DNA of 34,467 bases from an uncultured Bacillota bacterium (lineage in GTDB: Bacteria > Bacillota_I > Bacilli_A > RF39 > UBA660): the NCBI GenBank assembly GCA_947165005.1, contig CAMUYN010000008.1, forward strand, positions 1 through 34,467, written 5' to 3'. Shown here in pieces: positions 1 through 34,420 of the stretch. Both the position numbers and the translations under genes were made by a program. Numbering within the stretch: position 1 is the first letter of the stretch; each line of letters starts with the position of its first letter. The notes below the pieces were generated by a model. That model saw only the letters and a list, made by a program, of their open reading frames with translations, did no database searches and was not told the origin of the DNA.

Positions 1-1308
1 TTCTCTAATATTAAATACTATAAAATTAGATTTTGGAGTAATTGTTGTATGCCCATCAAAATAATGTTCCAATCCTCCATATGTTAATGGTCTTACTTTT
101 AATTCAAGTTTTTCCATTAAATCTCTTTCTTTAGTTTGTTCTCCATAAGAAAGAATTCTTCCCCTAATAGTTTTATAAACATCACTAAATGTTGGATAAT
201 CTTCTGATTTTAATTGAGTAAAATCAGTATTAACATTTATGTTAAATCTTTGATATGTTTCTATTACTACTTCATTAAATAAATTTAAAACATCTTCTTC
301 AATTGATGGATCATAATACATCATAAATGTTTTTAATGTTTGAATTGCACTAATAAATACTGATTTACCAACTTCTGCTCCAGCTTCTTCTTTATCAACA
401 TCTACTATTATTTCAAGTGGGTTGATCATACCATATTCACCGCCAAGACCTAAGTTGATAAAATCTCCATCATATAACTTAGTCATATCTTCAAGTTCAC
501 CTTCAGGGTCAATTGCTACAATCTTATACTCATTTCTAATATGAGTTCTAAGCATTAATTTAGCAGCAGTTGATTTACCTGAACCTGAAGTACCAAGTAA
601 TATCATATTCGCATTGTTTCTATTATGCTCTTTCTTTATTTGATATAAAAATTGGTTAAATAGAATGATACCACCAGAGAAATCTACACCAAGTAAGCAA
701 GATAAACCTGGATCTTTAATACAATCAAATACAAATGGATACATAGCAGCAAGTGTAGGAGATGGAATTGGTGTACCAATTCTATCTTCAATATCTTGTC
801 TTTCAAATATAGGTAAACAAGATTTTAATACTTTTTCTTGTTCAAATCTAAGAGGAATAGCTCTCATTTGCATTCCTTCTAATGTATCTTTAACTTGTGT
901 TTTTCTTTGTTCTAATTGTTCTTTTGTCCCAGCAGTTATCATTATATGTAATTGGAAATCAAATACTCTAGATTGATTATTTGTAATTGTTGTTATAAAG
1001 TCATTTAATGAATCATAATCCTGTCTTAGTTTTTCTTGAACAGTAACATCATTTTCTCTTTGATATCTATCTTGAATATCAGCAAGTTGTCTATTAAGCA
1101 TTTTAGCAAGTACACTAAATGCAATAGGTATATGCTTAGCAACTATTTTAACACCAGATAACCCTGATATTAGTGATGCTAAATATCCAGGATATATAGC
1201 ACCAGGGTAAGATACTACTGTTAAAACTGTTGCATATGTATCACTAATAAAGAAATCATTAGCATTAAATGTAATCCCTTTTGGGGCAACCTCTTTTCTT
1301 AAGCTCAC
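1..1308 (-). CDS. VirB4/TraE-like conjugation ATPase (3' end truncated by window edge)
   Basis: Reverse-strand reading from a GTG at 1308 (GTGA overlap with the upstream stop) gives VSLRKEVAPKGITFNANDFFISDTYATVLTVVSYPG...; Walker A LLGTSGSGKST lies around 555-600. The ORF runs off the left edge, so it is missing from the ORF track. Confidence 0.85.
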   Translation of the reverse strand, partial: MSLRKEVAPKGITFNANDFFISDTYATVLTVVSYPGAIYPGYLASLISGLSGVKIVAKHIPIAFSVLAKMLNRQLADIQDRYQRENDVTVQEKLRQDYDSLNDFITTITNNQSRVFDFQLHIMITAGTKEQLEQRKTQVKDTLEGMQMRAIPLRFEQEKVLKSCLPIFERQDIEDRIGTPIPSPTLAAMYPFVFDCIKDPGLSCLLGVDFSGGIILFNQFLYQIKKEHNRNNANMILLGTSGSGKSTAAKLMLRTHIRNEYKIVAIDPEGELEDMTKLYDGDFINLGLGGEYGMINPLEIIVDVDKEEAGAEVGKSVFISAIQTLKTFMMYYDPSIEEDVLNLFNEVVIETYQRFNINVNTDFTQLKSEDYPTFSDVYKTIRGRILSYGEQTKERDLMEKLELKVRPLTYGGLEHYFDGHTTITPKSNFIVFNIRE

Positions 1309-1847
1309 TGAGTAGTCACTGTCCTTTCTGTAAATGTTTTACCCCCATTTAAGAAATTATCAAGAATCATTCTTAAATCTTCATTTGATGTTTGTACACC
1401 AATTAATCCTGATTGAGCAAGATTACTAATTAAAGTTCTATTATTCTTACTAATTTCTTCAGGTGTTGATGCTTGGAATAAAATGTAATATTCTGTATCA
1501 ACAACATCATTTTGAACAAAATTATCAGCTTTATTAATATCATCAATTATTAGTTTTCTAATTGCTGGTTTACTAACATTATTTAATTGTAATTCTAATT
1601 GAGAAATATACAAATCAATATTAGTAGGTCTATCAGCAACTATTAGCCAGAATTCAAAATCAATTTGATTATAGAATTTTCTTAATTCATCAATAACACG
1701 ATTTTGAGATATTTCATCCATAATGAAGATATTTCTTGGTAATACCTTTATTCCAGATACTAATTTATTATTATCTAGAACAATCATATTATTGTTTATT
1801 TCTTTAACTGTAATCCAGTTTTCTGTACTTGAACTATTCTGATTCAT
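1305..1847 (-). CDS. VirB4-associated conjugal transfer protein (TrsD/TraC-like)
   Basis: 180-aa ORF directly upstream of and overlapping the VirB4-like ORF; 'WITVKEI..NMIVLDNNKLVSGIKVLPRNIF' resembles the N-terminal pattern of VirB4-linked proteins. Confidence 0.55.
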   Translation of the reverse strand: MNQNSSSTENWITVKEINNNMIVLDNNKLVSGIKVLPRNIFIMDEISQNRVIDELRKFYNQIDFEFWLIVADRPTNIDLYISQLELQLNNVSKPAIRKLIIDDINKADNFVQNDVVDTEYYILFQASTPEEISKNNRTLISNLAQSGLIGVQTSNEDLRMILDNFLNGGKTFTERTVTTQ

Positions 1848-2145
1848 CTTTCTTCACACTCCATCCTTCCCATTTATAATTCCTTCTGTTTGAAAAAAAT
1901 CTTATTGTTTCTTGTATAACAACTAAAACATTATGATAATTTGGTATTGGTATAACCAAAAATCCACATATTATTGCTGGTGCTAGGCATATTACAACAC
2001 CAAGTAATGTACTAGGAGCTGCTATTAATATAATTAATACTGAAGTTAATAACCCAGCACTTGATAATATCAAATCGAATGGTCTAAATATATTGAATAT
2101 TAATTTACCACTCTTTGGATTAGCTGGTATTATAAATAAATTCAT
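1834..2145 (-). CDS. PrgI/VirB3-like small membrane protein of T4SS
   Basis: 103 aa with two hydrophobic segments, directly upstream of the VirB4 module; 'YHNVLVVIQETIRFFSNRRNYKWEGW' tail. Confidence 0.6.
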   Translation of the reverse strand: MNLFIIPANPKSGKLIFNIFRPFDLILSSAGLLTSVLIILIAAPSTLLGVVICLAPAIICGFLVIPIPNYHNVLVVIQETIRFFSNRRNYKWEGWSVKKDESE

Positions 2146-2166: not shown

Positions 2167-3840
2167 CTAAAAAATCCAGCTTCCGTTAACTAAACGTAAT
2201 CCCAATGCCTGTGCTTTACTTTGAAAATTGCTTATAGCATTAGTGCTACCATTTCTACTTACGCTTTCATACATCTTAGTAACATAGGATGCAAAAGTTG
2301 TATTATCTGCTATTCGATTTCTTAATTTAGATAATATTTCTCCTGGATCACTTTTCGTATTTGTTATTAAATCTATTGCATCATCCGAAGTAGAATTAAT
2401 CAAATCGGGATTAGTAGTGGCTTTTAAATGGGCTCCAAAATCAGGAGTACCTATTTCTGTGCCATTAGCTTTTTCACTTTCGACAAATGAAGAAAAGGCT
2501 TCATAAGCAGTTTGATTATCAGGTGCAATTCCATAATCTGTATAATTTGGTGTTATTATTCCTTCCATCATATCTAACAAATAATTACTTGGAATTACAC
2601 TAGTAAAATTACCATTTCTATCGGTATAATTAGAAAATGAGGATGTATTTTTAACTGCACCAGCCATTTTTAAATCCATTGTTTCATTTTCGTTATCCAA
2701 TTCTTCTATAGCTCCTTTTGCTATTTCAGACATAGTTGATTCTTTAACCTTAATCTTATTGCTCATCTGATTAATTGCACTATCTTGTTTTCCAACAGCA
2801 TTTTGCAAACCAATTTTTGAAACATCGCCACTAAACACATCTGTTCCGTAGTTATTTTCAACATACGCTTGAGCGTTTTCCGCTTTTGCTATAGCTTCTT
2901 TAGCTAATCTAACAAAAGCATTACCGCTATTTTCTTCTAAAAACTTTCTATCGTCACTTGTAAGCGCTTTTCCTTTGTTAAAGTAATCAACTGCCATATT
3001 ACCCGCATGTATACCTGCAAGTTTTTCTTGTGGATCCTGACTAGCAGTTACGCTTTGAGCATATGCAGCTAATTGTTTGGAAGCTTCTTCTCTATTATCA
3101 GCAATAGCTTTTAACATTGCTTTTCTTGTTTTTGCTTCTGCTCTCTCTTTAGCAAAACCGCCTACCTCGCCATAATTATCATAGCCTTGATTTTCTGCCT
3201 TTCTAACTGTTTTCCATTGATTTTCTGAAAGGAAAAGTCCATTTGAATCTTCTCCATTTATTCCGCCATCTTCTGTTATAATGTTAGCATATTTATTGTT
3301 ACCACCAAGAGCAGTCTGAACTCTTTTTCTATTGCTATCAATATTTGCTTGACGTGCTTTAACTCTTTCAGTAGTAGTATAAGTTGGTGGAGCACTTGCA
3401 GTTTCATATTCTTTATAAGCGCCGAGTAAATCTCCAGTTTTTAATGCCTTTCTACCAGCGGATAACCATCCCTTTCCTTCTCTAAATGCCTTTGACTCTC
3501 GTATACTTGCTCCATCGTGTTTTTTTCTATACATAGCATTAGCGCCAAGATAAGCTCCCGCAATAGGTGCTGCCGCAACTAATTTTCCAATATTCTTTGC
3601 AGTTGTTCCAAGTGAAGTCCATGCTTTTTGTGCAAGGCCACCAACTGCAGCCATTTCACCAAGACGTCCTTTAATTCCACCACGGTCTTTAATTTGTGTT
3701 CCAAAAATAGTATTTATTATATCAGGGATTTTTTTAACTAATTGTAATATTGCTATCATTATAAGTATTTTGATTAACCCAGCAGCCATAACATCATAAG
3801 CTAAATATCCACCTGTTTCAAAAAATTCTAAAAAATACAT
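2167..3840 (-). CDS. VirB6/TrbL-like C-terminal half: TM segment plus large soluble domain
   Basis: N-terminal TM 'AAGLIKILIMIAILQLVKKIPDIINTIFGTQIKDRGG' followed by ~480 aa of soluble, Ala/Lys/Asn-rich sequence; RBS AAAGGGGG before ATG. Confidence 0.55.
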   Translation of the reverse strand: MYFLEFFETGGYLAYDVMAAGLIKILIMIAILQLVKKIPDIINTIFGTQIKDRGGIKGRLGEMAAVGGLAQKAWTSLGTTAKNIGKLVAAAPIAGAYLGANAMYRKKHDGASIRESKAFREGKGWLSAGRKALKTGDLLGAYKEYETASAPPTYTTTERVKARQANIDSNRKRVQTALGGNNKYANIITEDGGINGEDSNGLFLSENQWKTVRKAENQGYDNYGEVGGFAKERAEAKTRKAMLKAIADNREEASKQLAAYAQSVTASQDPQEKLAGIHAGNMAVDYFNKGKALTSDDRKFLEENSGNAFVRLAKEAIAKAENAQAYVENNYGTDVFSGDVSKIGLQNAVGKQDSAINQMSNKIKVKESTMSEIAKGAIEELDNENETMDLKMAGAVKNTSSFSNYTDRNGNFTSVIPSNYLLDMMEGIITPNYTDYGIAPDNQTAYEAFSSFVESEKANGTEIGTPDFGAHLKATTNPDLINSTSDDAIDLITNTKSDPGEILSKLRNRIADNTTFASYVTKMYESVSRNGSTNAISNFQSKAQALGLRLVNGSWIF

Positions 3841-3841
3841 A

Positions 3842-4780
3842 TTAAATTACCCCCTTTGCTTTTAATGCTTGAATAGCTATAACCATAAAACCTATTGCCA
3901 ATATTTTTAAGAATACTATTAGGTATGTTGAAATAAATTCTTTTGCCCATTTTTTAAGAATATCGGCATTAAATACGAATGCTCCCAAGACAATAGGTAG
4001 CATAAGTTCAAGTATTGCTAATTTAGCAGCTCTGAATATTGTATCCATACATAGTAATAGCATTTCATAAGCTACTAAGCATCCTGCTAAAGGACATAGT
4101 ATAGGATGGTATTCATATCTTATATGTGCTACTCCATCATTCGCCATATTTGTTGCACGAAAGATTTCTTCAGCTAGAGGTATTTCTTCGATTATACCGC
4201 CCATCCATAATTCTGTATCTAGATTTCTTATGTTATCTATATCTTTTTCTGTTCTATAATAATCTGTGTAATATGAATTTTTGCTGTTAGACATATCAAC
4301 AGCAACGCCAGTACTATCATCAACTAGTGTACAAAATGCACTAAATGTCTCCCATGCCATAGATTGTCCAACATCACCTTTCACTTTATAACCATATATA
4401 CGAGTTAATAAAGAATTTCCTTGATCTTTTAATAGATCTTTTTGAACGTCAACAACAATCTCAAATAATATAGGAAAAACAAATATTAATATTACTGCTA
4501 TTACTGCTCTTAAATATGCTCCCTTAACTCCTTTTTTATTATCAGTTAAAGTGTCTGGGTTTACCATTGCACTAATTAATTTAATTGCAATAGCAAACAT
4601 AACTACTACACCAACTAATACATATATATTATTCCAAACATCATGTATAAAATTTTCATTGAAGAATTCAAAATCTGCAAAATACATGAATATATCATAT
4701 AATCTAGGAATAACTGGATATACATATTGTGTAATAGATATACTTAATGCTAGAAATAAAAGTTTTATACCTTCTATCAT
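3842..4780 (-). CDS. VirB6/TrbL-like polytopic membrane protein
   Basis: 312 aa, multiple TM segments, in the T4SS operon between the pilin-like and VirB4 modules. Confidence 0.6.
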   Translation of the reverse strand: MIEGIKLLFLALSISITQYVYPVIPRLYDIFMYFADFEFFNENFIHDVWNNIYVLVGVVVMFAIAIKLISAMVNPDTLTDNKKGVKGAYLRAVIAVILIFVFPILFEIVVDVQKDLLKDQGNSLLTRIYGYKVKGDVGQSMAWETFSAFCTLVDDSTGVAVDMSNSKNSYYTDYYRTEKDIDNIRNLDTELWMGGIIEEIPLAEEIFRATNMANDGVAHIRYEYHPILCPLAGCLVAYEMLLLCMDTIFRAAKLAILELMLPIVLGAFVFNADILKKWAKEFISTYLIVFLKILAIGFMVIAIQALKAKGVI

Positions 4781-4782
4781 AA

Positions 4783-5628
4783 TTAGTCACATCCCTTCTC
4801 GCTTTGATCGTTTGTAGCAATACATTTAATTAAACATGTATTCTGAGAACCATAAGTTCCAACATGGCTAAAAATGAATTGAACTACAAATGGTAATATT
4901 ATTAATAATAAAAATGCAATTAATCTCTTTATAGCTTTTCCTCTTGCTTGTTTCATTTGTTTTTCATCGCTTGCAACCATTGCTTTAAAGAAATCAAGAG
5001 ATCCAAATAATATTATTATAAATGGAGCAGCTATTCTGATAAGTAACCATGTCATTGTTAGATATTTAACATCAGCGCAAGTAAAATCCGGATCAACTTC
5101 GATTAGATTTTCATCGTTCGTATTATTACACTTTGTTTTATACTCATTTTTTAATTGTTCATAAGCTTCTTTGTCAGATTGTAAATTTGTTGATTGATAA
5201 GTTATACGTTTTTCTTTTGCCTTTTGGTATAGTTCTGTACAATACTCCTTATTAGCTGTCCCTGTTAGACATTCTTTATGATTGCTTAACTCCTTAACTG
5301 CCTGGTCAAATTTGCTTTTATTCTCGTCAGATGAATCCAATTCATAAGCCTTACGTGTTTCATTAACATTTTGTATAAGGCTACTACAATCAACATAAGA
5401 ACTTGCAGAATTACCGCATTCCTCGTTATACTTTTGTAATGCCTCTTTATACTTGGCCTCATCGTTAGAATCACCAGTACTTCTATATGTCTTATATTTA
5501 AGAAGCGCATCGCTCATAAGTGAATTGCATTTATCACTATCAGGTTCTGCTAATACATTACTAGTAAACAGCATTGATACTGCTAGTGTAATAAATAAAA
5601 ATAATAAATATTTTATAGTTTTTTTCAT
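4783..5628 (-). CDS. Pilin-like (Mbov_0395/VirB2-like) protein with secreted N-terminal Cys-pair repeat region
   Basis: Track ORF begins at 5664, but RBS AGAAAGGAG precedes MKKTIKYLLFLFITLAVSMLFTSNVLA (signal peptide) at 5628. C-terminal module 'LIRIAAPFIIILFGSLDFFKAMVASDEKQMKQARGKAIKRLIAFLLLIILPFVVQFIF'. Confidence 0.7.
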   Translation of the reverse strand: MKKTIKYLLFLFITLAVSMLFTSNVLAEPDSDKCNSLMSDALLKYKTYRSTGDSNDEAKYKEALQKYNEECGNSASSYVDCSSLIQNVNETRKAYELDSSDENKSKFDQAVKELSNHKECLTGTANKEYCTELYQKAKEKRITYQSTNLQSDKEAYEQLKNEYKTKCNNTNDENLIEVDPDFTCADVKYLTMTWLLIRIAAPFIIILFGSLDFFKAMVASDEKQMKQARGKAIKRLIAFLLLIILPFVVQFIFSHVGTYGSQNTCLIKCIATNDQSEKGCD

Positions 5629-5746
5629 AAAAATTCTCCTTTCTATTCTCATAAATAGAAACAATTTCTTATCATATAATATTTTATCATAAATTTGTTG
5701 AAAATAAAAGAATTATTAACAATTATTTATTAATTTTTTTAAGCAA

Positions 5747-5772
5747 AAAAAGCAATAAAAATATTGCTTTTT
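5747..5772 (-). terminator. Intrinsic terminator after the Cys-rich pilin-like gene
   Basis: AAAAAGCAATA-aaaa-TATTGCTTTTT hairpin with U tract on the minus strand. Confidence 0.8.
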
Positions 5773-5786
5773 AAAACGCTTTATTC

Positions 5787-6929
5787 CTATGGATTAACGC
5801 AGTGTCCTCCGCCAGAAACTGTAACCCATTTGCATTGTTTTCCAGAGCGAGGGTCTTTTGTTAATTTACAATCACTTTCCCTTGTTATATTTACATCAGT
5901 GCATTTTGGTTGTGCACCGCAATAATCACCTTTTCTTGACCCAGTAATCCAAATGCAAATATCTCCACCAACTGTTTCTGATCCATCGCATTCCTCCTTT
6001 GGATATTGACTACAATATGTTTTTAAGTCTTTCTTTTTACAATACCCAGTACTTCCACCTGGAATTGAATACCATTTGCAGACATTGCCAGCTGAATCTG
6101 TGGAACCTTCACAAAGATCCTTAATTGTATATTTTGAACATTCTGTTGTTTCCACTGATTCACCATCGTTATCTATTTCATTAGTGGCATTTGAATCATC
6201 AGTTGTTTGAGTTGTAGAACCTTGGTTATTGTTACTACTATTATTATTTTTTTGATTATATCCTTTATTTGATGGGCTGACATTTCTATTAACGTCACAA
6301 GTATATCCGCCGTTTACTTCTGTCCACTTACATAGATCGCCAGATTTAGCATAATGCCCATCACATGAATCTTCTTCTTTATAATCAGCACAGTTATCTA
6401 ATAACACTTTGGATTTACAATTATATACTGAAGTTTTACCATCTTCAATTACTGCATCACAGCCATACATATGGCATTCTCTAGCAGATACTCCTTTGAT
6501 ATCTTCACATACTATACTTTGAGTTGGTCCAGTATATTCCCATATAGTATCATCTGTTGGTTCAGTATTTTGTTGTAATGAAGTAAAATCTATAACAGGT
6601 CTTGCCTGATGATAGCATGTCCAGAAATCAGCAGTTTCTGATTTACCTGCAATAATTCCCGCAATTAATTGAATAAGCCATGGTAAACACATTATTATAA
6701 TTGCTGCTATTACTCTTGCAATAAACGGTTTTCTTTTCATAATCATTTCTTTTTCATCACGTGCTATTAATGCTTTAAACCAATCTAATGATCCCCATAA
6801 TATTAATGCAAATGGTACTGCTATTTGTATTAGTAAAATAACAAATTTAGCCGCTTGAAATATTGGAAAATATTTAGTGCCTTCACAGCTAGTACTAGTA
6901 ATAAGTGTATCATCTAAAAAATATATCAT
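5787..6929 (-). CDS. Pilin-like protein with C-terminal Cys/Trp-rich repeat ectodomain
   Basis: MIYFLDDTL...FVILLIQIAVPFALILWGSLDWFKALIARDEKEMIMKRKPFIARVIAAIIIMCLPWLIQLIAG followed by repeated C-x(n)-C-x-G..G-x(2)-C-x-W..C units; RBS GGAGGAATT-ATG. Confidence 0.7.
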   Translation of the reverse strand: MIYFLDDTLITSTSCEGTKYFPIFQAAKFVILLIQIAVPFALILWGSLDWFKALIARDEKEMIMKRKPFIARVIAAIIIMCLPWLIQLIAGIIAGKSETADFWTCYHQARPVIDFTSLQQNTEPTDDTIWEYTGPTQSIVCEDIKGVSARECHMYGCDAVIEDGKTSVYNCKSKVLLDNCADYKEEDSCDGHYAKSGDLCKWTEVNGGYTCDVNRNVSPSNKGYNQKNNNSSNNNQGSTTQTTDDSNATNEIDNDGESVETTECSKYTIKDLCEGSTDSAGNVCKWYSIPGGSTGYCKKKDLKTYCSQYPKEECDGSETVGGDICIWITGSRKGDYCGAQPKCTDVNITRESDCKLTKDPRSGKQCKWVTVSGGGHCVNP

Positions 6930-6958
6930 AATTCCTCCATAAGATTTATATATATTTT

Positions 6959-6987
6959 ATTATAATTCTTTTCTATTATAAAAGCAA
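6959..6987 (-). promoter_or_regulatory. Sigma-A-type promoter for the Cys-rich pilin-like gene
   Basis: Minus strand TTGCTT-N17-TATAAT (-35 at 6982-6987, -10 at 6959-6964). Confidence 0.6.
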
Positions 6988-7004
6988 TAAGCCTCTTATA
7001 ACAA

Positions 7005-7036
7005 AAAAAGAATAAATCTTTTGATTTATTCTTTTT
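7005..7036 (-). terminator. Intrinsic terminator after the short pilin-like gene
   Basis: AAAAAGAATAAATC-tttt-GATTTATTCTTTTT perfect hairpin with U tract. Confidence 0.85.
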
Positions 7037-7433
7037 AACTACCATATTTTGTATCTTTGTCTCCGCTAGCTTTCTTTTGCATTTCAGAAAAATCAATTCT
7101 TGGCTTAGCATTGTCATAGCATTTCCAGAAATTACTAGCATTATCACTACCTGCAATTTGTTTTGCTACTAATTTTACGATCCAAGGTAAAATAAGTATA
7201 ATAATTGCTGCAACAAGTCTTGCGATAAAAGGTTTTCTCTTTGCTTTCATTTCCTTTTCATCACCAGCTATTAATGCCTTGAACCAATCTAATGATCCCC
7301 AAATTACTAATGCAAATGGAACTGCTATTTGAATAATTCTAATAACAAATAATGCAGCATTAAATAATGGTTGTACATCCCCACATTCATAATTTTCTAA
7401 ATCTAAAGTATCGTCTAGAAAAAACATATCCAT
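7035..7433 (-). CDS. Short pilin-like (Mbov_0395/VirB2-like) protein
   Basis: MDMFFLDDTLDLENYECGDVQPLFNAALFVIRIIQIAVPFALVIWGSLDWFKALIAGDEKEMKAKRKPFIARLVAAIIILILPWIVKLV. The track start (7466) overlaps the promoter -10; ATG at 7433 has RBS GAGAGGAG. Confidence 0.7.
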   Translation of the reverse strand: MDMFFLDDTLDLENYECGDVQPLFNAALFVIRIIQIAVPFALVIWGSLDWFKALIAGDEKEMKAKRKPFIARLVAAIIILILPWIVKLVAKQIAGSDNASNFWKCYDNAKPRIDFSEMQKKASGDKDTKYGS

Positions 7434-7510: not shown

Positions 7511-8020
7511 TTACTCTTCTATTATAAAGTCTTCACTTTTATGTGGTTCTTTAAATAATAAATCATTAAAATCTTGCTGTCTTAGTACTTCATATACCAT
7601 AATAGCTACACTATTAGACAAATTAAGTGCCCTTACTTTATCAGTCATTGGAATTCTCATGCAATGATCTAATTCTAATCTTAATATTTCCTTAGGTAAA
7701 CCAGTACTTTCTTTACCAAATACTAAATATATATTTTCATCTTTATCCCCATAATCAAATGAAGTATGTGGCTTCTTTCCATATCTAGTTAAATAATAAA
7801 AAGTACCTATATTTTTTGATTTAAAATCATCCCAATTTTCATAAACAGTATAATCTAAATGTTCTAAATAATTTACTGCGCTTCTTTTAACATACTTATC
7901 TTCTAATGAAAAACCTAGTGGTTTTATTAAATGTAATTTAGAATTAGTAGCAACACATGTTCTCATTATATTTCCAGTATTTCCTGGTATTTCTGGTTCA
8001 AATAAAACAATATTAATCAT
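7511..8020 (-). CDS. trmL: tRNA (cytidine(34)-2'-O)-methyltransferase, SpoU family
   Basis: MINIVLFEPEIPGNTGNIMRTCVATNSKLHLIKPLGF...LVFGKESTGLP...IPMTDKVRALNLSNSVAIMVYE; canonical TrmL motifs. Confidence 0.93.
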   Translation of the reverse strand: MINIVLFEPEIPGNTGNIMRTCVATNSKLHLIKPLGFSLEDKYVKRSAVNYLEHLDYTVYENWDDFKSKNIGTFYYLTRYGKKPHTSFDYGDKDENIYLVFGKESTGLPKEILRLELDHCMRIPMTDKVRALNLSNSVAIMVYEVLRQQDFNDLLFKEPHKSEDFIIEE

Positions 8021-11252: not shown

Positions 11253-12877
11253 CGATATAATGTTAACGGATTAAATGCCGTTCCTCCACCATATGAACCA
11301 TATTGTTTTCCACCATAGAATGTTCCAAAATGTAAATGACACGCAGACGATGATCCTGATGAACCCATATATCCAATTACTTGCCCCTTAGTTACCTGTT
11401 GTCCTGGATAAACAGTAACATTACTAGACATATGTGCATAAATCGCATATACATTTTCAGGATGTGCTATCCATACATAATTACCATAACCAGAACCACA
11501 GTAATCACCGGCCCCATAGCTGATATCCGCACATCCAGCATTTGTCTCTAATACAGTTCCCGATTCAATGGCATAAATAGGAGAAAAGCATCCTGATAGT
11601 GCAATATCTAGTCCATAGTGCATTCCACCATGCCAATCATCATAACCATAATAAGTAGTTATATATGAAGATACTGATGGCCATCCCCATGAACCTGAGA
11701 ATGATGGTGGAACAAAACCGCCTGTATAAGTTGATGTTCTTCTTGTCCCTTTAACAATAACTTCATCTACCGGTTCTTTAATAACATCAGTTTTTGTAAT
11801 ATAAACTTTATCTACTTTACCATTTAGGTATCTAACTTTTTCTGTTTGTCTAGATATTCCATTAACTCCTTCTGTTTCAACCTTTGATGTTCCATATGCC
11901 ATTGTATTATCTTCCTTTTCAACTGTTTTATAAACGGTTGAAACATCTTCTACAACGTGTTTTTCAACAGCTAATTCTAATACAGGATCCATACGAGCAA
12001 CGTTCACCACTTGTCCTGGTTTGAGAAGGTTGTCTGCACTAGTAAACTCCGGATTAACAATTAAAAATGCCCTTGTAGAAATCTCATTTTTAAATGCTGC
12101 GCTTTCAATTGTATCTCCTGGTTCTATAATATATTCCTTCTCAGAAACATTTTCATTAAAACTAAAGAATTTTGTCAAATCCTCAACTGTAGTATATATC
12201 GTTTCATCCGTAGGAATTAAAGCTTCCTTTATGGTTACATCCTGATCTAAATATATATTTTCAATCATACTTCCAGTCGAAACAATTTCTGGTTGTCTAT
12301 TGCTAGTATATGTGCTTACTTCACTTTCACTAATAAATAGATACATAAAATTTTTTACAGCTTCATCAAAAATATCTTTTTTTGTAATATATATTACTAT
12401 TTTTTCTTCTTCTGTTTCTTCTGATTCATTATTTTTCATTTCTTCTTCAGTTAATTCTCCGGAATTAATTTTCTCTGCTATTTCAGTTTCATTACTTATT
12501 CTACTGTTTTTAGCCTTTGAAATAGTTACTACATATCCCTTTATAGAGAAGCTTTTATTCTCTTTTATTTTTTTATATATATCTTTTTCAGACATTATTT
12601 TACCTTTAAAGGTAATTGCCTTTTTTATATCTATACCATTAGGTATATATACTTTTTTTACTTCATATTCATCTTTTAATGCTCTTTGTTCATTATCAAT
12701 ATAATTCTCTAAAGCCTTTTTTGATTTTATTGCTCCGATAAATTTCCCATCAAGATATACTTTATATACTTCTTTAGGATTTTTATCTACAGGTTTAGTT
12801 ACTTGATAAACAAATATTATTAATCCTGAAATTAATAATGCAATAACAAAAGGAATATATGCTTTTATATTCTTCAC
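11249..12877 (-). CDS. M23 peptidase with LysM- and G5-like domains, N-terminal TM anchor
   Basis: TM anchor, LysM-like 'YIIEPGDTIESAAFKNEISTRAFLIVNPEF', G5-like segment, and M23 motifs HYGLD and HLHFG. Confidence 0.88.
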   Translation of the reverse strand: MKNIKAYIPFVIALLISGLIIFVYQVTKPVDKNPKEVYKVYLDGKFIGAIKSKKALENYIDNEQRALKDEYEVKKVYIPNGIDIKKAITFKGKIMSEKDIYKKIKENKSFSIKGYVVTISKAKNSRISNETEIAEKINSGELTEEEMKNNESEETEEEKIVIYITKKDIFDEAVKNFMYLFISESEVSTYTSNRQPEIVSTGSMIENIYLDQDVTIKEALIPTDETIYTTVEDLTKFFSFNENVSEKEYIIEPGDTIESAAFKNEISTRAFLIVNPEFTSADNLLKPGQVVNVARMDPVLELAVEKHVVEDVSTVYKTVEKEDNTMAYGTSKVETEGVNGISRQTEKVRYLNGKVDKVYITKTDVIKEPVDEVIVKGTRRTSTYTGGFVPPSFSGSWGWPSVSSYITTYYGYDDWHGGMHYGLDIALSGCFSPIYAIESGTVLETNAGCADISYGAGDYCGSGYGNYVWIAHPENVYAIYAHMSSNVTVYPGQQVTKGQVIGYMGSSGSSSACHLHFGTFYGGKQYGSYGGGTAFNPLTLYR

Positions 12878-12889
12878 GAATATCCCTCC

Positions 12890-14221
12890 CTATTCTTTTT
12901 GATAATTAGTAAATGTGACAGTACTACCTTTAAATATAAATTCTACTGTCTTAGTAGGACCATTTCTGTTTTTACCAATTATAAATTCAGTAATACTAGC
13001 TTCTTTATTCATTGCTTCTTTATTATAGTAATCATCTCTATATAAGAAACCAACAAGGTCGGCATCTTGTTCTATAGATCCTGATTCTCTTAAGTCACTC
13101 ATTAATGGTCTTTTATCAGGTCTTCCTTCTACAGCACGAGAAAGTTGTGCAAGTGCTATAACAGGGCATTTTAATTCCATTGCCATTGTTTTAAGTCCTC
13201 TTGAAATTTCAGCAACTTCTTGTTGACGATTAGCTTGGTTTCTTGATGAACCAGTAATCAACTGCAAATAATCGATTACTACTAAACCAAGGCCATTTTC
13301 TTTAGAAGCAAGTCTTCTACATTTACTTCTTATATCTGAAATAGTTGCTCCAGGGGTATCATCTATTTTCAAATTAGTATCTGCAAGAATAGTTACTGCT
13401 TCACTTAATCTTTTCCAATCATTATTATCAAAATTACCATTTCTAAATCTAGCAAAATTTATTTGACCTATTGAACTTAACATACGATTAACTAATTGTT
13501 CCGCACTCATTTCAAAGTTAAATATTGCAACATTCTTATTAGTATTTCTAGCTACATATGTTGCAATATTAAGAGCAAATGCAGTTTTACCCATACCAGG
13601 ACGTGCTGCTATTATATATAGTTCATTTTCATGTAATCCGCTGGTCAATTTATCAAATTCATAAAAGCCTGTAGCATATCCAGTTATTTCACTCTTATTT
13701 TCACTTAATTTCTCTAAGTCTGATTGTGCTTTAAAAACAACATCCTGTATATTTCTAAATTCTGCTGTCTTTCTTTTTTGTACAACATCAAATATTTTTG
13801 CTTCTGCTTGATCTAATATATCATTTACTGGTGAATTTTCAGTATATGAAGAATTAGATATCTCATTTGATGCATTAATTAATTTTCTAAGTACTGATTT
13901 ATCATGAACAATACCAATATAATAATCTATATTAGCTGCGCTAGGTACAAAATTAGCTATTTCTACTAGATACTCTATATTACCTACAGAAGATAACTCT
14001 TTTGCACTTTCTAATCTATCAGTAACAATAGTGATATCTACTGGTATACCCTCATTATTTAAATCAGATAATACTCTAAATATTTTTTGATTAGCTTCTA
14101 AATAAAAATCTTCTTCACTTAGCTCATCACATATCTTTTGAAGAGCATCTTTAGATAAAAATGCTGATCCTAAAACTGATTGTTCTGCTTCTTTACTATA
14201 TGGAATATTTCTTTTATCCAT
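12890..14221 (-). CDS. dnaB: Replicative DNA helicase DnaB (B. subtilis DnaC)
   Basis: N-terminal MDKRNIPYSKEAEQSVLGSAF, Walker A AARPGMGKTAFALN, VVIDYLQLITG. Confidence 0.97.
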   Translation of the reverse strand: MDKRNIPYSKEAEQSVLGSAFLSKDALQKICDELSEEDFYLEANQKIFRVLSDLNNEGIPVDITIVTDRLESAKELSSVGNIEYLVEIANFVPSAANIDYYIGIVHDKSVLRKLINASNEISNSSYTENSPVNDILDQAEAKIFDVVQKRKTAEFRNIQDVVFKAQSDLEKLSENKSEITGYATGFYEFDKLTSGLHENELYIIAARPGMGKTAFALNIATYVARNTNKNVAIFNFEMSAEQLVNRMLSSIGQINFARFRNGNFDNNDWKRLSEAVTILADTNLKIDDTPGATISDIRSKCRRLASKENGLGLVVIDYLQLITGSSRNQANRQQEVAEISRGLKTMAMELKCPVIALAQLSRAVEGRPDKRPLMSDLRESGSIEQDADLVGFLYRDDYYNKEAMNKEASITEFIIGKNRNGPTKTVEFIFKGSTVTFTNYQKE

Positions 14222-33721: not shown

Positions 33722-34420
33722 TTAAATCCTATTATTCTTTTTATTTCTCATATATACAAATAAAACTATCATAAATATTATTAATGCTAAAGCTACTGCT
33801 ACTAAAACAGAATATTTAATATTTATTTCAAAAAAACCAAAATTAAATTTTCTTGAAGTATTAGTTTCTTTTGTATTAAATTTAACCTTAATATTTTTTA
33901 AATTATCATCTTTTTTAATATACCAAGTATAGGTATTACCATTAACTTTATCAGCATTATTCTCTGTTACCTTAAATGGTATTTCTATATTTATTTCTAT
34001 ATCATCATATATTAATGATTTACTAGCATAACTAGATAATGGTACATCCTGATTGTATTCTAGTGTAATATAACTATCTTTTTTAGTTAAATTCACTTCT
34101 TTAATTATATCACTTTTAAAATAGCTTTCATAATCTTCTAATGTTTTAAAAGAAGTTGATGCATAAGATGTAATTGAATTGCTGCTTTCTGTTGTTCTAA
34201 AATTATATTTAACTCCATCTATCTTATATAATTTATATAAAGAATTAGCAGTTACTTTTGGTTCTTCACTTGATCTTGTTTTTAAAACATTTAAGTTTTC
34301 TGTTGCTGTTACTTTTTCATTTACTGTTAAATCTTCGTTAATATTTAAATTATATTTAACTGAACATCCACTAAATAAAAGCATTACTAGTATTAATAAT
34401 ATAATCTTCTTATTTTTCAT
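33722..34420 (-). CDS. Putative lipoprotein with C-terminal TM anchor
   Basis: MKNKKIILLILVMLLFSGCSVKYNLNI (lipobox FSGC) and a C-terminal TM followed by a basic tail. Confidence 0.7.
   Translation of the reverse strand: MKNKKIILLILVMLLFSGCSVKYNLNINEDLTVNEKVTATENLNVLKTRSSEEPKVTANSLYKLYKIDGVKYNFRTTESSNSITSYASTSFKTLEDYESYFKSDIIKEVNLTKKDSYITLEYNQDVPLSSYASKSLIYDDIEINIEIPFKVTENNADKVNGNTYTWYIKKDDNLKNIKVKFNTKETNTSRKFNFGFFEINIKYSVLVAVALALIIFMIVLFVYMRNKKNNRI

Follow-up and report, generated by a model that had tools for sequence, protein, structure and literature searches.

Pilin-like proteins with different ectodomains in a chromosomal type IV secretion locus of uncultured Bacilli

The window analysed here is the whole of contig CAMUYN010000008.1 (34,467 nt; assembly GCA_947165005.1) from an uncultured bacterium of the family UBA660 (Bacillota), and it contains part of a type IV secretion system (T4SS) locus in which three paralogous genes, here P1, P2 and P3, encode a common pilin-like module: bare in P1, followed by a Cys-rich ectodomain in P2, and preceded by a signal peptide and repeats in P3. 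On balance we lean toward the reading that these three proteins make up the pilin array of a T4SS in monoderm Bacilli that is domesticated, fixed in the chromosome and displays variable pilin-anchored domains. Each protein would be a VirB2-type two-helix hairpin with its short basic turn in the cytosol and both tails outside, where a near-invariant Cys in each tail would probably close a disulfide clamp. The bare protein would polymerise as the main structural subunit and so build the bulk of a short pilus or channel extension; the decorated subunits would co-assemble with it and present variable ectodomains, which would serve to contact other cells or surfaces of the host. Assembly would be powered by VirB4 and VirB6, the wall would be opened by a linked protein of the M23 or SpoIID type, and, since VirD4 is present, a substrate would presumably still be moved, with VirD4 delivering it. 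Most genera encode this machine together with a Tad pilus, the window's genus having kept the T4SS alone.

The shared module and its arrays

In searches of the own genome, P1 matches P2 with 57% identity over about 127 residues (E 1.2e-45) and P3 with 42% identity over about 85 residues (E 1e-16), and a profile made from the three window modules retrieves dozens more, well beyond chance. These results bear out a preliminary description of the window, which had proposed one module shared by bare, C-decorated and N-decorated open reading frames (ORFs). The three ORFs exist where it placed them (Table 1), but on the minus strand, the plus strand there being rich in stops. The upper coordinates of P3 (5628) and P1 (7433) are internal ATGs, of which the first yields a good signal peptide, MKKTIKYLLFLFITLAVSMLFTSNVLA, and the second a protein beginning MDMFFLDD. 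The common module is a hydrophobic hairpin around PFxxxxxGSLDxFKAxxAxDEKxMxxxRxxxxxRxxAxxxxxxLP, and AlphaFold models P1 (89 sequences) as two long helices, residues 32-67 and 70-104 (mean pLDDT 75, pTM 0.50). Across 248 modules the mean net charge is -1.6 in the N-tail, +0.6 in the loop and -1.3 in the C-tail, and the loop carries more positive charge than the N-tail in 195 of them and than the C-tail in 187 of them; a signal-peptide-like start is present in 83 of 87 N-decorated members. The basic loop, acidic tails and signal peptides support a placement of both termini outside the cell, as the preliminary description had predicted. A Cys stands shortly before and shortly after the module in 244 of the 248 cases, compared with 0.8% Cys in the other ORFs of the window; this pair, together with the signal peptides of the N-decorated members, argues for external tails and suggests that they are joined by a disulfide clamp. 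VirB2/TrbC pilins are known for head-to-tail closure, which such a clamp would recall by analogy, via different chemistry.

Two features expected of the T4SS_pilin family (PF18895) were found, namely a hairpin of two membrane helices (AlphaFold) with a short basic turn (charge pattern), and a gene neighbourhood with VirB3, VirB4 and VirB6. P1 of the window scores 14.1 bits against PF18895 (E 0.05; cutoff 26.6), and the homologous bare pilin of locus L046 reaches 30.2 bits, over the curated cutoff. In total, 19 of 24 bare relatives match PF18895 at E<=1, one of them over the Pfam cutoff, in line with the earlier assignment as pilin-like, and 7 of 24 weakly match NF045849 (Mbov_0395 pilin-like), a profile whose matches outside mycoplasmas were mostly at noise level when run on whole genomes. 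The preliminary description had staked its reading on a structural match to VirB2, which was not obtained for P1 or P2: Foldseek of the two models against the PDB gave no match at E<=0.001 (best E 3.1 and 0.93), in a test that has low power for a two-helix hairpin and was run without a positive control. Without a match to a VirB2 pilus, we infer the pilus from sequence and gene context only. ATP synthase subunit c for P1 (E 4.9) and a Pfs25-like protein for P2 (E about 1) were set aside as Foldseek noise, as were the gap-junction proteins that were the pilin profile's only matches among PDB sequences; Pfam matches of P3 to TAS2R/7tm were hydrophobicity artefacts.

All 37 family genomes searched, which include the own genome and represent 26 genera, contain the module; among 23 genomes outside the family there was one weak match. 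VirB4 of this type scores strongly in about 34 of the 38 family genomes of a class-wide draw, of which G060 (98% completeness) and G212 had none and two more gave weak matches only (here and below, G, L and C label genomes, loci and contigs; G000 is the own genome and G005 the sister species). The named relatives are mostly metagenome-assembled genomes (MAGs) of uncultured Bacilli, Erysipelotrichaceae or Bacillales, and many of the samples are from rumen or ruminant gut or are rabbit-labelled ("Lapin"). In the 57 distinct loci with an upstream anchor, arrays hold one (3 loci), two (27), three (11), four (10), five (3) or six (3) modules; family-wide they frequently have a bare module first and an N-decorated one last, and the commonest compositions are two bare-length modules (15) and a bare followed by an N-decorated module (12). 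C-decorated or doubly decorated modules make up 6 of 163 adjoining the T4SS, mainly in the window's genus. Given these array patterns and the rarity of C-decoration, the exact trio is a genus-level variant of a family-wide pattern. Conservation of the trio next to VirB4 and VirB6, on which the preliminary description had also made its reading depend, was thus found in part: modules stand beside VirB6, VirB3 and VirB4 throughout the family, but the exact trio recurs only in part of the window's genus.

Further modules are dispersed. The own genome has a fourth at C1:80736-80969, within a 387-aa protein. At L051 9389-10552 (G000:C1), and at the same place in L032, L034, L036-L041 and L049, a module protein with an NlpC/P60-like C-terminus (read by eye) follows hpf; next come a 259-aa protein for which hhalign gives 99.7% with a gene of the T4SS locus, an ORF resembling a lipoprotein and one of 830 aa, a SecA-like length. 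Large module proteins stand in tandem in L031 (7865-12500, G006:C9; 575 and 938 aa) and L035 (5118-9731, G010:C21), one of them with a Peptidase_C39_2 domain (C39-like, PF13529). In another Bacilli family, a T4SS resembling that of an integrative and conjugative element (ICE) encodes a bare 98-aa pilin and an 897-aa protein whose end matches the module weakly (E 6e-3; L221, G104:C17; 7177-9870 and 13757-14053).

Ectodomains, VirB6 and the role of the module

P2, with 23 Cys, continues beyond the module in four repeats of about 35 aa; in P3 the module is preceded by three repeats of about 45 aa with flanking Cys, as read from the sequence itself. AlphaFold models each P2 repeat as a short helix plus beta-hairpin with low overall confidence (pTM 0.27); this model had no PDB match in Foldseek, nor did phmmer find one for the P2 and P3 ectodomains among PDB sequences. 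The N-terminal Cys repeats of P3 in G005 are of the CxxY...C...C...C type, like the C-terminal repeats of P2 (weak reciprocal profiles, E 9e-4 and 8e-3). If they are homologous, the same repeat type may be placeable at either end of the module, as in a swap between P2 and the sister's P3, and both ends would then face the same side. Between the window and G005, VirB4 is 88-92% identical, with a ratio of nonsynonymous to synonymous substitution rates (dN/dS) of 0.09-0.10, and TrmL, UDG and RlmH are 90-95% identical (TrmL 95%; dN/dS 0.05-0.09). Identity is 69-86% in the modules, 32-35% in the parts of P2 and P3 outside them and 30% in the soluble C-terminal ORF of VirB6; all dN/dS values are below 1, with ectodomain alignments unreliable and dS near saturation. 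The pattern is that of a resident machine whose exposed parts change fast.

A separate observation concerns L235 (G271:C11), where an inverted repeat of 337 nt (96%; 11588-11924 and 13843-14179) is common to two divergent pilin genes of the N-decorated type downstream of VirD4. The repeat covers the module and its arms enclose different ectodomains, making the pair a candidate inversion switch or gene-conversion pair.

The N-terminal hairpin of the window's VirB6 (residues 43-112) resembles the pilin module. In a search with a pilin-only profile, the class ranking directly after the pilins is that of the VirB6 N-terminal hairpins, with an alignment that spans almost the full module (E 1.1e-3 for the window's VirB6), and hhalign pairs pilin and VirB6 hairpin with 68% probability (E 5e-5), compared with 0.3-5.4% for the controls, the VirB6 middle region and eight other sets. 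NF045889 (Mbov_0396 transmembrane protein) also matches three pilins, best at 7.8e-5. An E of 1e-17 for the VirB6 hairpins from a first iterative profile was discarded because the hairpins had entered that profile; since the pilin-only profile gives 1e-3 at best, a common origin of pilin module and VirB6 hairpin is suggestive only.

A possible though doubtful alternative builds on this resemblance: the module may be a T4SS-docking membrane hairpin that does not polymerise, the bare copy a channel subunit, and the decorated copies anchored surface enzymes or adhesins that dock on VirB6 by way of its related N-terminal hairpin. Of the other classes, the VirB6 hairpins come closest to the pilin profile, and the dispersed module proteins bear a C39-like or NlpC-like domain and adjoin the homologue of a T4SS-locus gene mentioned above. 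Arrays of up to 6 modules, however, resemble the T4SS pilin arrays of Patescibacteria (PMC12102498), and the Pfam T4SS_pilin matches point the same way. Docking and pilus are compatible with each other, and the data do not separate them.

Several points weigh against a pilin array as such. The window modules themselves fall below the PF18895 cutoff, Foldseek against the PDB gave no VirB2 pilus, and the dispersed relatives bear peptidase-like domains; a two-helix hairpin could also be a plain membrane anchor or a docking domain, and bulky N- or C-terminal domains may make it harder for subunits to pack into a helical pilus. Nor does the rate contrast prove positive selection. Finally, all genomes are MAGs or drafts, and the system is known here from sequences alone.

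A fixed chromosomal site and its Tad neighbour

The T4SS spans C8 (the window) and C2 and is bordered by TrmL on one side and by Hsp20/pyruvate kinase on the other. TrmL is the left border in those loci of the genus that reach it, and the right border, Hsp20-pyruvate kinase, is common to the window species and G005; with ordinary genes on both flanks, the T4SS is chromosomally embedded. Within the genus, VirB4 and TrmL distances correlate (rho 0.42, p 0.03). No relaxase of PF03432, the sole class searched, was found in the own genome (88.6% complete), and in relatives the few that occur are on different contigs or distant from the T4SS locus, some beside a second VirD4 or a fused VirB4. On the fixed site, the missing PF03432 relaxase and a core evolving like housekeeping genes, the domesticated surface apparatus that the preliminary description had offered as one option gains support.

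The same data make it very unlikely that the locus is a degenerate or dormant conjugative element with the trio as its mating-pair apparatus. Its VirB4 is related to the mycoplasma ICE ATPase (NF045975), a VirD4 coupling protein is present, and family members also have separate ICE-type T4SSs. However, neither a linked relaxase (PF03432 class) nor a variable insertion site was found; the position between housekeeping genes is fixed, relatives have no PF03432 relaxase beside the locus, the system is present across 26 genera, and VirB4 is under strong purifying selection. We reject the ICE on the fixed site and the lack of a PF03432 relaxase.

Among 52 loci with at least 6.5 kb upstream, 44 have Tad genes (CpaB, TadA, TadB, TadC, TadE/F, TadZ-like) directly upstream of the T4SS, and 6 of the remaining 8 have TrmL there, as in the window's genus. 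TadA at E<=1e-20 was found in 0 of 12 genomes of the window's genus and in 15 of 16 of the family's other genera, and Tad and VirB4 distances correlate (rho 0.67, p 0.002; 32 loci). The Tad/Flp pilus is thus present as the upstream half of the T4SS locus in most genera, but it is a separate filament machine and was not found in the window's genus. No description of a combined Tad and T4SS locus was found in the open-access literature. In another family, L238 (G041:C17) has TadA/TadC-like genes near separate ORFs for the C-terminal and N-terminal parts of VirB4, in opposite order.

A bolder and less likely reading, going beyond the pilin array itself, is a modular VirB2-type pilus whose disulfide-clamped hairpins take interchangeable, fast-diverging ectodomains at either end. 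It would have evolved as a unit with Tad, and the hairpin at the start of VirB6 would derive from a pilin and might act as template for the first layer of the pilus. It is very unlikely that the T4SS is a DNA-uptake machine partnered with ComEC, as in Helicobacter ComB, from which T4SS-based uptake is known (PMC12857230): ComEC is present in 24 of 25 family genomes, including the Tad-less genus, but is near-universal outside the family as well, VirD4 suggests export, and the essential T4SS of Southlakia does not act via ComEC (PMC12857230).

Related systems and layout of the locus

Gram-positive T4SSs are described as lacking VirB2 pilins, Patescibacteria excepted (PMC12857230, PMC12102498). 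The generalisation in the preliminary description that T4SSs usually encode one major pilin stands for diderm systems but not for monoderm ones, which are described as having none (PMC12857230, PMC12102498). The T4SS of Patescibacteria has arrays of 2-11 VirB2-like pilins and usually no relaxase, and is essential for epibiotic growth in Southlakia (PMC12102498, PMC12857230). This system (Southlakia epibionticum) is the closest known: it likewise belongs to monoderms with small genomes, is chromosomal, includes VirB3, VirB4, VirB6 and VirD4, has arrays of divergent two-helix pilins (2-11 there, 1-6 here), usually lacks a relaxase, and co-occurs with type IV filament pili. Here, in contrast, the host is one of the Bacilli, pilins carry large N- or C-terminal ectodomains and a flanking Cys pair, Tad genes and a peptidoglycan (PG) hydrolase stand in the same locus, and VirB4 is in two ORFs. 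The present system is a second monoderm lineage with pilin arrays, adding ectodomains, the Cys pair and Tad linkage. Mycoplasma ICEs (Mbov_0395, NF045849; Mbov_0396, NF045889; Mbov_0397, NF045975) have the closest named VirB4 family, give weak profile matches to the pilins and VirB6-like hairpins, and show the same order of pilin, VirB6 and VirB4. They differ in being mobile and in having the equivalents of VirB3 and both VirB4 parts, split here, fused in one protein; their pilins are bare and, like those of the other Bacilli ICE-like loci inspected, lack the Cys pair. The Trw T4SS of Bartonella likewise has several sequence-variable VirB2 paralogues, with multiple copies of VirB2 and VirB5, proposed to build variable host-cell-binding pili (PMC12857230). 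It is diderm and without VirD4, which is present here, and domains appended to its VirB2 are not described (PMC12857230).

The origin of the Patescibacteria pilins is stated as open (PMC12857230, PMC12102498), and it becomes testable by phylogeny with an array that is fixed and family-wide in Bacilli and that profiles link to T4SS_pilin and the Mycoplasma ICEs. Pilin hairpins bearing ectodomains at either end would be a new mode of protein display on a T4SS, and a locus common to Tad and T4SS points to coupled pili in monoderm gut bacteria. Saccharibacteria need similar machinery for their life on other bacteria, a likeness that prompts the question of whether these small-genome gut Bacilli also depend on contact with other cells.

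Table 1. Features of the T4SS locus in the window.
Feature	Coordinates	Strand	Length	Remarks
P1, bare pilin-like module	7035..7433	-	133 aa	from ATG at 7433; ORF open to 7466
P2, pilin-like module (residues 25-94) and Cys-rich C-terminal ectodomain	5787..6929	-	380 aa	profile match
P2, four Cys-rich repeats	5799..6392	-		residues 180-377; each modelled as short helix plus beta-hairpin
P3, signal peptide, three Cys-flanked repeats, C-terminal pilin-like module	4783..5628	-	281 aa	from ATG at 5628; profile match
VirB6/TrbL-like membrane part	3842..4780	-	312 aa	PF19597 TrbL_4, E 0.02; VirB6 of relatives
VirB6 soluble C-terminal part, separate ORF	2167..3840	-	557 aa	52% to same ORF in L052
VirB3/PrgI-like protein	1834..2145	-	103 aa	NF045975 positions 2-97, E 0.003; conserved place
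VirB4 N-terminal part, separate ORF	1305..1847	-	180 aa	NF045975 positions 98-277, E 4e-14
VirB4 ATPase part, cut by contig end	1..1308	-		NF045975 E 1e-71; rest on G000:C2
TrmL-like tRNA methyltransferase	7511..8020	-		named from sequence and neighbours; left border of T4SS locus in genus

The end of the window, which is the entire contig C8, overlaps C2 by 55 bp. C2 continues with the remainder of VirB4, a 1034-aa homologue of the sister species' M23-peptidase protein (PF01551 in L052; profile match) and VirD4 (PF02534, E 1e-61), beyond which lie genes that, judged by sequence, encode Hsp20, pyruvate kinase and an MFS protein. The other flank of the T4SS holds what we take to be TrmL, UDG, RlmH, an MBL protein, an M23 protein, DnaB and L9. 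The order pilin array, VirB6, VirB3, VirB4 N-terminal part, VirB4 ATPase part, PG hydrolase, VirD4 is also that of the relatives' loci. VirB4 is in two ORFs in 57 of 57 loci examined (median 187 and 595 aa), and ICE-type VirB4 within the same class is mostly a single ORF; VirB6 occupies two ORFs, one for the membrane part and one for the soluble part, in the window, L052 and L088 and is a single fused protein of 550-1050 aa in most relatives. The component set of a monoderm (MPF_FATA-like) T4SS is present, with VirB4, VirB3, VirB6, coupling protein and PG hydrolase; no VirB8-like subunit was recognised in the operon, where no sensitive search for one was made. At 33722-34420 the window also encodes an LppM-domain protein (PF21946, E 2e-6), and similar proteins recur near T4SS loci and the dispersed pilin-peptidase loci.

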